A stretch of DNA of 34,370 nucleotides from IMG/VR virus record IMGVR_UViG_3300043466_000074, positions 1-34,370 of that record; one strand, 5' to 3'. The stretch comes from a virus. The notes under the pieces were generated by a model, which saw only the letters and a list, made by a program, of their open reading frames with translations, was not told the origin of the DNA and searched no databases. A program made the position numbers and the translations under genes. Below are positions 15,554 through 21,756 of the stretch, piece after piece (position 1 is the stretch's first letter; every line of letters begins with the position of its first letter).

Positions 15554-15906
15554 TCCTTAAATTTAAAAACCTCTGCTGCGTTAAAGTTTACCTCGTGAGT
15601 ATTGTTGCTTTCAACGTGTGTCATTGATAACTGGCGAAGCTCATCAGGTGTAGCAATAAGCTTCATTAAACCCATTTGAAGAGTTGGATTATCTGATTTA
15701 TACCACTTAGATCGCATTGAAACTTTAATCTCTGTCTTGACTTTAGTTAATGCAGATTTTATAGAGTCGGATTCGTGTAATTTATGATTGTAAAATGTTT
15801 CTTTGCTACAAGGCAAGTAAGCAATAATATCCTCAAAAAAAAATAGTTTATACTTTTCTATCGCTTCTATTGATTGCTTCTCAAGTTCTAAATAATTATA
15901 AGCCAT
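15550..15906 (-). CDS. terS: Terminase small subunit
   Basis: A 118-residue protein directly before the large terminase gene, with GTGA overlap. The N-terminal half contains a helix-turn-helix-like segment (EDIIAYLPCSKETFYNHKLH). The rest (SALTKVKTEIKVSMRSKWYK, LMKLIATPDELRQL) fits small terminase subunits that bind the packaging site and regulate the large subunit. It overlaps the methyltransferase stop by 11 bases. Confidence 0.85.
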   Translation of the reverse strand: MAYNYLELEKQSIEAIEKYKLFFFEDIIAYLPCSKETFYNHKLHESDSIKSALTKVKTEIKVSMRSKWYKSDNPTLQMGLMKLIATPDELRQLSMTHVESNNTHEVNFNAAEVFKFKE

Positions 15907-17152
15907 AAGGTTGTCCGTTTTTCTTTATAACTAAACTTGGATCTAATTTTTGCATCCTTTCAACAATTACTTGGCAGTACTTTGGATCAAGTTCTGTTCC
16001 ATAACAAATGCGATTAATTTGATGTGCTGCCACCATAGTTGATCCTGAACCCAAGAATACATCAGCTACTAATTCTCCTGTTTTAGACGAGTTTTCAATT
16101 AATGGAGCAATTAATTTAATTGGTTTCATTGTTGGATGCACATCATTTCTTGAAGGTTTATCACAGTTGATAATAGTTGTTTTTCTTTTGTCAGATGTCA
16201 TTTCTTTTACAATTTCAAGCAATTCATTTTTGCTTAGCTTTTTAAAATCAACTTTATCTTCCATTACCGTTGTCTTTGTGCGATCATTTGTAAAATAATG
16301 AGCAGCTCCTTCTTTCCATCCATAAAGACAAGGTTCGTGTTTCCAATGATAATCTTGCCTTCCCATAACTAATGCATTTTTTACCCAGATTAAACATTGT
16401 TTTAATAATAATCCTGAATCCTTAAATGCTTGCCTAAAGTTTGCGCCTTCAGAATCTGCATGCCAAACATACCAAGCACCACCAGCCTTTGTGTAAGATC
16501 CTAATGAAGTATAGAAATCATAAAGAAATTGATAAAATGAGTCATTTGACATATTATCATTTTCAATTTTTAATCCTGTTCCACCTTCATAATTAACATT
16601 ATAAGGAGGATCTGTCATTACCATGTCACACAATTTATCGCCAAATAATTTGTCCCAACTTTCTACTTGTGTTGAACTTCCGCATAATAATTTATGATTC
16701 CCAATTTCAAATAAATCGCCTTCTACTATATCTGTTTCTATTGTTTCTGGTATTTCATAATTATCTTCTTCTGCAGTTGGTTCTTCAACAACATCATAAA
16801 CAGGTAAATCCAAACCCCAAGCTTCTAGTTCATCAGCATTCCATTCGTTTGCAAGCATATCCCAATCCCATTCGCCTCCGCTTGTATTGTCCTTAATTAA
16901 AAACTCTCTCTGCTTATCCTCTGGAAGATCCGTAACAATAACTGGTATCTCTTTTATTCCTGCTTCTTTGCAAGCTCTGAATCTCATATTGCCTCCTAAG
17001 ATTATCATATCCTTATTGACCACAATTGGTCTAATGGATAGCATTTCAGGAAAGTCTTTAATTGATTGTACTAGCTTTTTAAATTTATCATCCTTAATCA
17101 ATCTTGGATTATTAGGATTTAATTTTACTTCACTTATTTTTTTCAGTTCCAT
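15896..17152 (-). CDS. ParB-like domain fused to beta-type DNA methyltransferase
   Basis: A 418-residue protein. Residues 1 to about 115 are a ParB/sulfiredoxin-like domain (PNNPRLIKDDKFKKLVQSIK, then ILGGNMRFRACKEAGIKEIP with the GGNMR nucleotide-binding motif at 53-57). Residues about 140-415 are an N6-adenine/N4-cytosine methylase: DPPY at 181-184, HPTMKP at 339-344, FLGSG at 366-370. Catalytic motif before AdoMet motif is the beta-class order. Such phage enzymes protect DNA against host restriction or mark it for packaging; no cognate nuclease is seen, so it is an orphan. It starts at TAATG and lies directly before the terminase genes. Confidence 0.9.
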   Translation of the reverse strand: MELKKISEVKLNPNNPRLIKDDKFKKLVQSIKDFPEMLSIRPIVVNKDMIILGGNMRFRACKEAGIKEIPVIVTDLPEDKQREFLIKDNTSGGEWDWDMLANEWNADELEAWGLDLPVYDVVEEPTAEEDNYEIPETIETDIVEGDLFEIGNHKLLCGSSTQVESWDKLFGDKLCDMVMTDPPYNVNYEGGTGLKIENDNMSNDSFYQFLYDFYTSLGSYTKAGGAWYVWHADSEGANFRQAFKDSGLLLKQCLIWVKNALVMGRQDYHWKHEPCLYGWKEGAAHYFTNDRTKTTVMEDKVDFKKLSKNELLEIVKEMTSDKRKTTIINCDKPSRNDVHPTMKPIKLIAPLIENSSKTGELVADVFLGSGSTMVAAHQINRICYGTELDPKYCQVIVERMQKLDPSLVIKKNGQPYGL

Positions 17153-19621: not shown

Positions 19622-20376
19622 TATTCGCAAGGTTTTATTTCTCCAGTTGCAGTTAAGTAAGCCTTAAAGTCTGCTAAGTTTTCAATGAATTCTCGATAAC
19701 ATTGAGCTTTGCAAGCCATAATTAGTTCATCTTTGTCCTGATATTTAGGCAATAAGCTAGAATAAATACGCTTTTTATCTTCAACATTAGCCTCATATAT
19801 TCCAAACTGTACAATATAATCGTATAAAACGTGCAAGCCACCTGCAATCCAGTTCATTTTTATTGACCTTTCTTGACATCGCATCATTTCCTGAGCATAC
19901 ATATTTGCCGAATTAATAGCTGCCATCTTTAAATCTGCATCGCTTGGTTTTGATTTTGCGGGTTCTACTACTTTTGCATTAGCAACCTTGCGCATAACTT
20001 CATTCTTTTGTTCGATAAACTTACGAACCCAACCACAAAAATTAGATGAAGAAAAGAAAATCACATCATTTCCTGCTGAATTAAATTCACCGTTTAAACC
20101 TCGTTTTAAAGCGAGATTTATTTCATCGACAGATAGATGTCCAAACGATGCTATATCTTCCATTAAAACCAAAACTAAAGCCTTGTGTTCGTCATCTGGT
20201 AGTGGTTTTGATCCTAGCTTTATTTTAGCCAAAGATATTGAACGCATTGCAAGGTTCATCAAATCTTGTTCTGTAAGGCTTGAAATCTTTAAAGATGTTT
20301 GAGCTTCAACAACATCTTTCTCGTATCTGGATAGTCCAGATATTGCGCTACTTGTATGGATTAATGAAAGTTCCAT
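19621..20376 (-). CDS. Putative replication accessory protein, unknown family
   Basis: A 251-residue mostly helical protein. Segments include LGSKPLPDDEHKALVLVLME, INLALKRGLNGEFNSAG and SSNFCGWVRKFIEQKNEVMR. It lies between the replisome-organiser-like gene (overlap 29 bases) and the nuclease (TAATG). A helicase-loader-like role is possible from position and helical content, but no ATPase motif is visible, and I do not assign it to a family. Confidence 0.6.
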   Translation of the reverse strand: MELSLIHTSSAISGLSRYEKDVVEAQTSLKISSLTEQDLMNLAMRSISLAKIKLGSKPLPDDEHKALVLVLMEDIASFGHLSVDEINLALKRGLNGEFNSAGNDVIFFSSSNFCGWVRKFIEQKNEVMRKVANAKVVEPAKSKPSDADLKMAAINSANMYAQEMMRCQERSIKMNWIAGGLHVLYDYIVQFGIYEANVEDKKRIYSSLLPKYQDKDELIMACKAQCYREFIENLADFKAYLTATGEIKPCE

Positions 20377-21109
20377 TTTGTATTTCTTCGGTTAATTGGT
20401 CGTGAACATTTTTCAAACTTATTAAATTCTGTTGAAATTTACCTATTTCTTTTTTAGGCTCAACAGATCCTTTAGGTGCAAACAATCCTTGATAATTATT
20501 AGATATTGAATTGTTGATTGCAAGTTCCAATTCTAAATCAGATTTTGATTCCCATTCTTTAAACAATTGAGCCTTTCCAATTTCTGTGTACTTAGATTTT
20601 TTTTGTTTCTTATATTCAAACCATCTATTAAACAAAAGTTCACGTTCCGTAGGAATGTATTCAAATTCTTCTTGTTCTTTTTCTTCTTCTTTTTCTTTTT
20701 CTTTTTCTTTTTCTTTTTCTTCTTCTTTTTGTGGATGTGTATCTATACTGTATAGATACTCTATCAATACTCTATTCTTGACTTGCTTTAGCTCTTTTTC
20801 TACACAAGCCATTACTTTAGGGGAATTAGAGTCATTAAACTTAACCCAATTTAATAGAGCAATTTCATTGGTAGATTTACTCCATCTAATTTTATTCTTT
20901 TCCTGAAAGAAATCTATTAATTTCTGTACTGTTTCTGAGTTGTAACCAGTGTCAAAGCATATCTTTCTAATTGATGTTTCATAAATACCGCATTGCGTTG
21001 TCTTATCGTTTGTCATCAAGTACAGATAAAAGTACTTTTGCTCTGGTGTCAGCTCACCTACGAAAGAATCGCTCCAATAGGAAACCGATATTTTTCTAAA
21101 TGCTGCCAT
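20348..21109 (-). CDS. Replisome-organiser/DnaD-like replication initiation protein
   Basis: A 253-residue protein starting at the ATG at 21109, one base after the stop of the 56-residue gene; a TTG at 21130 is the upstream alternative. Residues 1-110 form a winged-helix initiation domain (AFRKISVSYWSDSFVGELTP, EQKYFYLYLMTNDKTTQC, GIYETSIRKICFDTGYNS). Residues about 128-150 are a Lys/Glu linker coded by a hexanucleotide repeat. The C-terminal part (NRWFEYKKQKKSKYTEIGKA, then a DnaD-like helix pattern) would contact other initiation factors. It probably binds the origin and recruits the host helicase. No phage polymerase or helicase is seen. Confidence 0.75.
   Translation of the reverse strand: MAAFRKISVSYWSDSFVGELTPEQKYFYLYLMTNDKTTQCGIYETSIRKICFDTGYNSETVQKLIDFFQEKNKIRWSKSTNEIALLNWVKFNDSNSPKVMACVEKELKQVKNRVLIEYLYSIDTHPQKEEEKEKEKEKEKEEEKEQEEFEYIPTERELLFNRWFEYKKQKKSKYTEIGKAQLFKEWESKSDLELELAINNSISNNYQGLFAPKGSVEPKKEIGKFQQNLISLKNVHDQLTEEIQNGTFINPYK
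20689..20724. repeat. Hexanucleotide tandem repeat (CTTTTT)n
   Basis: From 20689 to 20719 a C recurs every six bases with five T between (C at 20689, 20695, 20701, 20707, 20713, 20719). Minus-strand reading gives alternating GAA/AAG codons, hence the K/E linker of the replication protein. Slippage would change length in multiples of two residues without a frameshift. Confidence 0.85.
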
Positions 21110-21110
21110 A

Positions 21111-21281
21111 TTATTTATAAGTTTTATCAATAATATATTTAGCTATTAAATAAAATAACTCCCTTACAACCAATGGAGTCCATACACTATACCAACTCCA
21201 GTCAATTTGATTAGTTAATTTTAATGTTATTAAGATTAAAGTTAAAATCTCAATAAAACTTAAATGGTTTGAATTTCTCAT
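21111..21281 (-). CDS. Small membrane protein (56 aa)
   Basis: ATG at 21281 and TAA at 21111, one base before the next start. It reads MRNSNHLSFIEILTLILITL, KLTNQIDWSWYSVWTPLVVR, then ELFYLIAKYI and a basic end. Two hydrophobic stretches around IDWSWYSVWTP match the small phage proteins called 'transmembrane fragile-X-F'. It is the first gene after the attenuator-like RNA at 21290-21380, and so the first product of that operon. Confidence 0.6.
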   Translation of the reverse strand: MRNSNHLSFIEILTLILITLKLTNQIDWSWYSVWTPLVVRELFYLIAKYIIDKTYK

Positions 21282-21307
21282 TTTATTAAATAAAAAAAGC
21301 CAGACAT
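21278..21307 (-). other. Nine-codon leader frame in the terminator
   Basis: The frame reads MSGFFYLIK. Its ATG is beside the 3' arm of the terminator stem, it runs through the T-tract, and its TGA overlaps the ATG of the 56-residue gene as ATGA. Translation would require read-through of the terminator. It may be chance, but the exact overlap is of the type used throughout this genome. Confidence 0.3.
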
Positions 21308-21380
21308 TGCGTAGGAGTGCAAGCTGGCTTTGGTTTTTAACCCTATTTAATCACCTGAAAGCTCCTACCCTCTCAGTTGA
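21290..21380 (-). ncRNA. Structured leader RNA with kissing hairpin loops and terminator
   Basis: On the minus strand hairpin 1 is UCAACUGAGAG-GGUAGGAG-CUUUCAGGUGA (21380-21351; one A-G mismatch). A small GGUU-AAA-AACC hairpin follows (21342-21332). Hairpin 2 (21331-21296) has an outer stem AAAGCCAG/CUGGCUUU, an inner stem UUGC/GCAA and the 8-nt loop ACUCCUAC, followed by a U-tract. The loops GGUAGGAG and ACUCCUAC share 7 perfect complementary bases. With a TAnnTTTG box just upstream, transcription would give an RNA of about 90 nt ending here, or read through into the operon. Confidence 0.7.
21292..21331 (-). terminator. Intrinsic terminator (part of leader RNA)
   Basis: Minus-strand stem AAAGCCAG/CTGGCTTT (21331-21324 and 21303-21296) followed directly by four more T; the downstream arm and tract together hold seven T. 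It lies between the early operon end (21402) and the replication operon start (21281). Confidence 0.8.
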
Positions 21381-21386
21381 TTTATA

Positions 21387-21394
21387 CAAAGATA
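21387..21394 (-). promoter_or_regulatory. Promoter -7 box TATCTTTG
   Basis: Matches the Bacteroidota consensus TAnnTTTG. No clear -33 TTG element is seen in the AT-rich upstream sequence. A start near 21380 would begin the leader RNA at the foot of hairpin 1. Confidence 0.6.
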
Positions 21395-21406
21395 ATAATT
21401 ATTATC
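21391..21406. promoter_or_regulatory. Perfect 16-bp palindrome, candidate operator
   Basis: GATAATAATTATTATC is self-complementary over all 16 bases. It overlaps the upstream half of the TATCTTTG box and the stop of the gene at 21402. Placement suggests a dimeric repressor site, but an all-AT-rich palindrome can arise by chance. Confidence 0.45.
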
Positions 21407-21668
21407 TCATTTTACACACTCGCTTTTCAAAGATTCCAGCAAAGTGTGGGAAGTCTTGTTCAAACTTACGAGCGTAATCTGCCGTGTAATTATTATTAAT
21501 CTTAAACTCATCGTTGCGTTCTATTTTCGATTCCCAACGGATGCGTTCAAAAATTGCCTTAGCTCCTATCTTGTTCTGCCCTGCGCTTATTAACTGATAG
21601 GCATAGTGAACAAACTCTTTGTAAATTCTAGGATTTCTTTCGTTGTATTCTTGGAATGTTTCTCTCAT
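21402..21668 (-). CDS. Conserved phage protein (early region), unknown function
   Basis: An 88-residue protein using the ATG at 21668 (a TTG at 21680 is the alternative). It has the widely conserved phage pattern NPRIYKEFVHYAYQLISAGQ, IGAKAIFERIRWESKIERND, FKINNNYTADYARKFEQDFP. Members are common in siphovirus early regions but have no established role. It is the last gene of the early operon, with a promoter box just after its stop. Confidence 0.75.
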   Translation of the reverse strand: MRETFQEYNERNPRIYKEFVHYAYQLISAGQNKIGAKAIFERIRWESKIERNDEFKINNNYTADYARKFEQDFPHFAGIFEKRVCKMR

Positions 21669-21756
21669 CTGGTTTAACAAGTTTTAGTTTTATATAATTT
21701 TCACGTAAGGTTTTGGCAATATGTTCCTGCCATTGATTGAAAGTAATTTGATTCAT
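21628..21756 (-). CDS. Small basic protein (42 aa)
   Basis: ATG at 21756 in an ATGA overlap with the preceding stop, TAG at 21628 inside the next gene. It reads MNQITFNQWQEHIAKTLREN, then a basic end (PRIQRKKS). The overlap pattern supports expression, but the 41-base overlap with the next gene and short length keep confidence moderate. Function unknown. Confidence 0.5.
   Translation of the reverse strand: MNQITFNQWQEHIAKTLRENYIKLKLVKPDERNIPRIQRKKS

Follow-up and report, generated by a model that had tools for sequence, protein, structure and literature searches.

A conserved phage RNA with kissing hairpins, a candidate attenuator of viral replication genes

The window analysed here is the whole of IMG/VR virus record IMGVR_UViG_3300043466_000074 (34,370 nucleotides), where a short region of the minus strand, just ahead of replication genes, had been annotated from its letters as a compact RNA of about 90 nt with two hairpins, the second of them a terminator. 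The locus raises the question of whether such an RNA is conserved, whether its two loops pair under selection and what it would do in front of replication genes. Sequence, predicted fold and covariation agree on the compact RNA and on the terminator, and the features of the locus are collected in Table 1.

On the minus strand the locus runs from a promoter box (TATCTTTG) through hairpin P1 (AAUCAACUGAGAG-GGUAGGAG-CUUUCAGGUGAUU), mini-hairpin P2 (GGUUAAAAACC) and hairpin P3 (AAGCCAGCUUGC-ACUCCUAC-GCAAUGUCUGGCUU) to a U-run, with an ATG 10 nt later. The GUAGGAG of the first loop and the CUCCUAC of the second are perfect complements over 7 bp, as the initial annotation had claimed and as can be read directly on this strand. 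That annotation gave stem 1 as 11 bp with one mismatch, of which the mismatch stands (a single A·G in the window, conserved as a purine-purine mismatch) and the length becomes 12 pairs; for stem 2, the 4-bp inner stem and the U-tract were right, whereas the outer stem, given as 8 bp, came to about 7 bp. P2 is additional to the two hairpins described before and has other sequences in other lineages (GGUA/UACC in L157 and L210, GGUAA/UUACC in L209 and GGAUU/AAUCC in L218); it was not found in L158.

The predicted fold had an MFE of -30.2 kcal/mol, where shuffled sequences averaged -19.6 kcal/mol (z = -3.2), and a scan of the window for any two kissing hairpins followed by a U-run returned the RNA at 21382-21292 as its sole match, with about 0.18 matches expected per shuffled strand. 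These single-sequence statistics are suggestive of the kissing arrangement, the proof of which comes from conservation.

Table 1. Features of the locus (positions in the window)
Feature	Position	Strand	Description	Basis
Upstream gene	21402..21680	minus	phrog_13625, unknown function	profile match
Palindrome	21391..21406		GATAATAATTATTATC, perfect, 16 bp; overlaps the -7 box as well as the upstream gene's stop codon	sequence
-7 box	21387..21394	minus	TATCTTTG, Bacteroidetes type, consensus TAnnTTTG; predicted +1 at 21382	sequence
P1 hairpin	21349..21382	minus	21382-21370 with 21361-21349, 12 pairs; loop GGUAGGAG at 21369-21362	fold and covariation
Kissing strand 1	21362..21368	minus	GUAGGAG	covariation and tests not selected for complementarity
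P2 mini-hairpin	21332..21342	minus	GGUU-AAA-AACC	sequence and fold
P3 terminator hairpin	21297..21330	minus	21330-21319 with 21310-21297; loop ACUCCUAC at 21318-21311	fold and covariation
Kissing strand 2	21311..21317	minus	CUCCUAC	covariation and tests not selected for complementarity
U-run of intrinsic terminator	21292..21298	minus	RNA of about 91 nt predicted to end here	sequence
56-aa ORF	21111..21281	minus	phrog_1374; ATG 10 nt after the U-run
Replisome organizer / DnaD-like replication initiator	20348..21130	minus	PHROG 6251, E 1.5e-44

Both the promoter box and the palindrome reported just upstream were found there. In flavobacteria the -7 box TAnnTTTG lies at -12 to -5 (PMC9723704), and so the predicted start of transcription is the first base of P1. 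Of 114 unique RNAs, 86 had a TAnnTTTG-like box 25-27 nt ahead of loop 1. The palindrome is a possible repressor operator, and imperfect palindromes like it occur in L001, L002 and L004. In another group of loci (L014, L016, L017, L020, L052 and L077), several carry inverted repeats around the promoter, for example GTCAC...GTGAC, that are unlike GATAATAATTATTATC and are candidates for lineage-specific operators.

With regard to the flanking genes, in 87 of 168 contexts the gene immediately upstream of the RNA was a phrog_13625 homolog. Downstream, the position ahead of the replication operon was confirmed in the window, with the replisome organizer following the 56-aa ORF, and in 98 of 160 contexts the first downstream gene belonged to a single cluster that includes replication initiators. 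The remaining first genes were small ORFs, HNH endonucleases, antirepressor-like proteins, a VirE-type primase (L209) and a helicase-like protein, names that come from reading the sequences, as the profile search named only the initiator of the window. Of the 114 unique RNAs, 100 had the ATG of an ORF of at least 40 aa at -3 to +14 nt from the U-run; among random same-strand positions the count was 259 of 2065 (12.5%). The first start codon usually lay 8-12 nt past the U-run. Two further observations in the window concern a low-complexity run of CTTTTT type inside the replisome organizer gene (about 20700-20730), which encodes a Lys/Glu-rich stretch, and a ParB-like N-terminal domain fused to an N6/N4 DNA methyltransferase (15896-17152, minus strand).

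When the occurrence of the RNA was followed, searches with phrog_13625 and with the replisome organizer returned about thirty viral contigs each, most of which carry it, and a pattern scan with the majority loop gave 86 stretches in IMG/VR; altogether it occurs in more than 100 viral contigs from several lineages. Conversely, three loci that keep phrog_13625 at 48-60% identity (L022, L024 and L028) gave no RNA with the model. Across 84,980 bacterial and archaeal species genomes the majority-loop pattern had one match (Hydrogenophilales, L146), which was rejected as chance, the RNA model not matching there. The absence of at least the majority allele from species genomes therefore points to virulent rather than integrated phages, and no integrase was found in the subset of ORFs scanned. 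Each matching record holds one copy of the RNA, except for a 59-kb contig (IMGVR_UViG_3300027969_000114) with two different copies at 21066 and 52167, about 31 kb apart, which is perhaps two phage genomes joined. A weak echo of the same RNA site was also seen on the opposite strand of G002. A related-looking element at L202:8286-8366 has a 10-nt complement (CGGGUAGGAG/CUCCUACCCG), and GGGUAGGAU precedes the downstream start there, so that its terminator loop could also pair with the ribosome-binding region.

Rfam 15 gave no match above the gathering threshold in the whole window, and in E-value mode with a 251-base stretch only chance-level matches far below the thresholds were obtained; the hairpins lie side by side with no junction, which bears out the first impression that neither a known class nor a purine-riboswitch core is present. 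The similarity of the locus at the DNA level to named phages was limited to a short match within the low-complexity part of the replication gene, and ten concatenated RNAs compared with phage records gave chance fragments only. By terminase the nearest named phages are Nonlabens P12024S/L (64% identity), and the RNA was not found in them or in the Polaribacter phage stretches examined. Thus, the element is apparently undescribed. A riboswitch binding a metabolite or a protein would fit the conserved purine mismatch of P1 and the constant GU..AG flanks of the loops; in view of the lack of an Rfam match and of almost any conserved unpaired core outside the kiss, this is a very improbable identity for it.

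Covariation was assessed in 62 distinct RNAs, where 98.8% of the cells of the structure are standard pairs and double-sided changes are found in 19 of 29 pairs, compared to 9.8 in shuffles; sliding the partner by one column lowered pairing to 35-51%. In P1, 10 of 12 pairs vary on both sides with 99.2% of cells paired, P3 covaries in both its outer and inner stem, and the kissing helix was paired in 100% of this set with double changes at three pairs. Position 14/23 is GU in 49 of the 62 RNAs, and G·U pairs settle that the element acts as RNA and on the minus strand. A cruciform or an origin at the DNA level was considered and is disfavoured by these G·U pairs, by the promoter and by the U-run.

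As the 62 RNAs had been gathered by a script demanding near-complementary loops, the kissing helix needed independent tests. A nested covariance model without the loop pairing, applied to loci fetched by protein similarity and to the window, gave 49 strong matches (slightly fewer independent contigs, some loci being overlapping views of one contig), and all 49 had perfect 7-bp loop complementarity, with five alleles; having been derived from the biased set, this model leans towards known loop sequences, but pairing adds nothing to its score. Among these matches there was not one case of complementarity lost with the flanks kept, and compensatory alleles were found instead. A scan that constrained the terminator stem alone, with any 8 nt accepted as loop 2 and no condition on loop 1, found 38 different full-length RNAs, every one of them complementary (36 by script and two placed by eye, L345 and L346, for which the script had chosen the wrong hairpin, their actual loop UGUGGUAG pairing with UCUACCAC). 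In a second lineage, whose stems are unrelated and which was searched with NNN open in both loops, Watson-Crick complementarity held in 18 of 19 different RNAs, and the remaining one, L292 (GUGGGAG/CUUCCAC), paired via a single G·U. This wobble pair, also noted in L300, is an apparent evolutionary intermediate between loop alleles. In wider NNN-free scans most of the non-complementary matches were also without hairpins, as expected of chance hits. A further loop-free pattern for the GAG-type terminator gave no matches, its spacing probably being unfit for the known members, and carries no weight as evidence. The counts from the nested model, the loop-2-free scan and the second lineage place the loop-loop pairing under selection, as had been proposed, and at the level of sequence the structure, its conservation and this selection can be taken as established.

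The loops occur in ten alleles of the form GUNNNAG/CUNNNAC: GUAGGAG, GUGAGAG, GUCAGAG, GUCGGAG, GUGGAAG, GUGGUAG, GUCGCAG, GUAGUAG, GUAGAAG and GUAAGAG. Because most scans prescribed the GU..AG flanks, the constancy of these is only partly tested. Different alleles are found behind near-identical upstream genes (AGG in the window and GAG in L001), and the second lineage has three to four letters at the variable positions 12/14 and 60/62 of the loops in an otherwise similar RNA.

What the RNA does was approached from its setting. The sequence has the anatomy of an attenuator leader, with a promoter, a structured leader and an intrinsic terminator directly before an ORF. Because there is no space for a promoter between the terminator and the gene, expression from the nearest promoter needs read-through. 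We regard this conserved RNA family, with somewhat better than even confidence, as a transcription attenuator that acts on the replication operon from a promoter-proximal position, the loop contact setting the efficiency of the terminator. Transcription would start at the first base of P1 and pass P1, P2 and P3; a fraction of the transcripts would stop in the U-run, releasing a free RNA of about 91 nt, and read-through would produce the mRNA of the downstream genes, often led by the replication initiator. The loops of P1 and P3 would pair over 7 bp and this contact would tune the terminator, the kiss most likely locking P3 and favouring termination. The element is most likely a brake on the replication genes of the virus. 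Against this reading, the downstream genes could also be supplied by polycistronic transcription from upstream genes.

A plain leaky terminator, in which the kiss would merely stabilise the 3' end or set a fixed, unregulated low read-through, is consistent with the lack of any known signal or ligand, as the fold alone could set a fixed ratio. However, a simple terminator has no need of another hairpin whose loop covaries and is retained in many contigs, which makes this account highly doubtful. The exact bracketing of the RNA by promoter and terminator would also suit a small RNA acting on its own in a structural or regulatory role, possibly as a dimer or ring, next to which the start codon reflects only genome compactness, and kissing-loop homo-oligomers are known among phage-borne RNAs (PMC12286853). 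The tight, repeated spacing from U-run to ATG, the recurrent replication gene and the lack of a link to terminase or packaging genes speak against such a role, which we consider improbable for the family. Three GC-rich loci with the alleles GUAGUAG and GUAGAAG (L232, L267 and L306) have no ORF directly after the U-run and their longer neighbouring ORFs are mostly on the opposite strand; they are possibly stand-alone small RNAs, in line with that role, and their setting is unexplained by a pure leader function.

The geometry of the kiss was considered next to these readings. In an intramolecular 7-bp kiss, P1, the paired loops and P3 form a stack of about 31 bp, some 85-90 Å long, a distance that the average linker of 17 nt must bridge at nearly full extension, with a folded P2 shortening the linker further; longer stems do not come with longer linkers, as far as the approximate, automated stem ends tell. 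Bending would ease this strain. That a full intramolecular kiss looks strained counts against the attenuator reading. Pairing of loop 1 with loop 2 in both directions between two RNAs would need only short linkers. The linker geometry and a near-random turnover of alleles hint at intermolecular action as well, and the loops may pair between two RNA molecules and not within one.

Self-recognition in trans would follow from such pairing: the terminated RNA would kiss nascent leaders of the same allele and force their termination, giving replication feedback or the exclusion of phages with the same loop type, and the alleles would be compatibility groups. The ten alleles and their differences between phages with near-identical upstream genes fit this idea, as do the varying loop positions of the second lineage, the linker that is short for an intramolecular kiss and the two-kiss dimer that would accommodate it. 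Precedents exist in the P4 leader RNA, which terminates the P4 replication genes early (PMC4825925), and in plasmid RNAI, where loop changes alter compatibility (PMC10724649). On a tree of the upstream gene, the alleles changed 27 times, compared to 32.9 for shuffled labels (28-37). However, mosaic recombination alone is able to shuffle alleles, the type of downstream gene also changing often on this tree (13 changes vs. 15.9 shuffled), and the loops can equally satisfy each other in cis. Furthermore, faster loop change between close RNA pairs was not seen overall (32 changes vs. 49 expected), and loop hypervariability was discarded as an argument for diversifying selection. The window has a few further GUAGGAG/CUCCUAC sites that might serve as trans targets, scattered and without pattern. 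Self-recognition in trans appears unlikely but is a serious alternative, and its specific form as a brake whose aborted leaders stop same-loop nascent leaders and exclude co-infecting phages of the same allele, with ten or more alleles as incompatibility groups, is rather unlikely.

The RNA is a compact element with a covarying 7-bp contact that is absent from Rfam 15, and it sits where phages decide the dose of the replication initiator. Its natural loop alleles offer a ready set for testing RNA self-recognition in replication control or superinfection exclusion, and the RNA could serve as a small natural scaffold for orthogonal RNA attenuators.

Several named systems share parts of this design. 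In the purine riboswitch two hairpins make a loop-loop contact, often followed by a terminator, whereas here there is no enclosing P1, no three-way junction core and no Rfam match. The HK022 put antitermination RNA, which renders RNA polymerase resistant to terminators, places two hairpins, themselves not terminators, at the start of an early phage operon, and no covarying 7-bp kiss is known between their loops; the present RNA also has two hairpins early in a phage operon, but the second is a terminator and the loops kiss. The phage-borne phi29 pRNA joins its copies through paired loops. ROOL, GOLLD and OLE are likewise oligomeric RNAs with paired loops, ROOL and GOLLD being phage-borne (PMC12286853). 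With all these the present RNA shares paired loops potentially able to join RNA copies, but it is a small terminator-ended leader adjoining replication genes and without a packaging link, the TerL gene (15553-14345) lying about 6 kb away behind the replication genes and not at a pRNA-type location.

Closer in function are the antisense controls of plasmids. In pT181-type attenuators and in plasmid copy control, the sequence of the loop, together with the upper stem, sets specificity (PMC3753616, PMC10724649). Loop-loop kissing and a terminator before a replication initiator are common to pT181-type systems and the present RNA, in which, by contrast, the complementary loop belongs to the same RNA and no antisense transcript is evident from the opposite strand; on the plus strand just beyond the terminator no TAnnTTTG box was seen by eye, and the YUNR U-turn motif, also checked by eye, is absent from the majority-allele loops GGUAGGAG and ACUCCUAC. 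In phage P4, pairing between the CI RNA and the seqA-seqC leader terminates the phage's own replication operon prematurely (PMC4825925). Here too a phage leader RNA stands upstream of replication genes. P4, however, processes a longer leader and uses separate target sites, while in the present case the two partners are loops within a single RNA of about 91 nt with its own intrinsic terminator; carriage by prophages or satellites of P4 type was not seen for the majority allele, with the single chance match among the species genomes. The P4 CI RNA and the kissing-loop antisense controls of plasmids are the functionally nearest systems, and belonging to either would require action in trans, which is hypothetical for the RNA described here.
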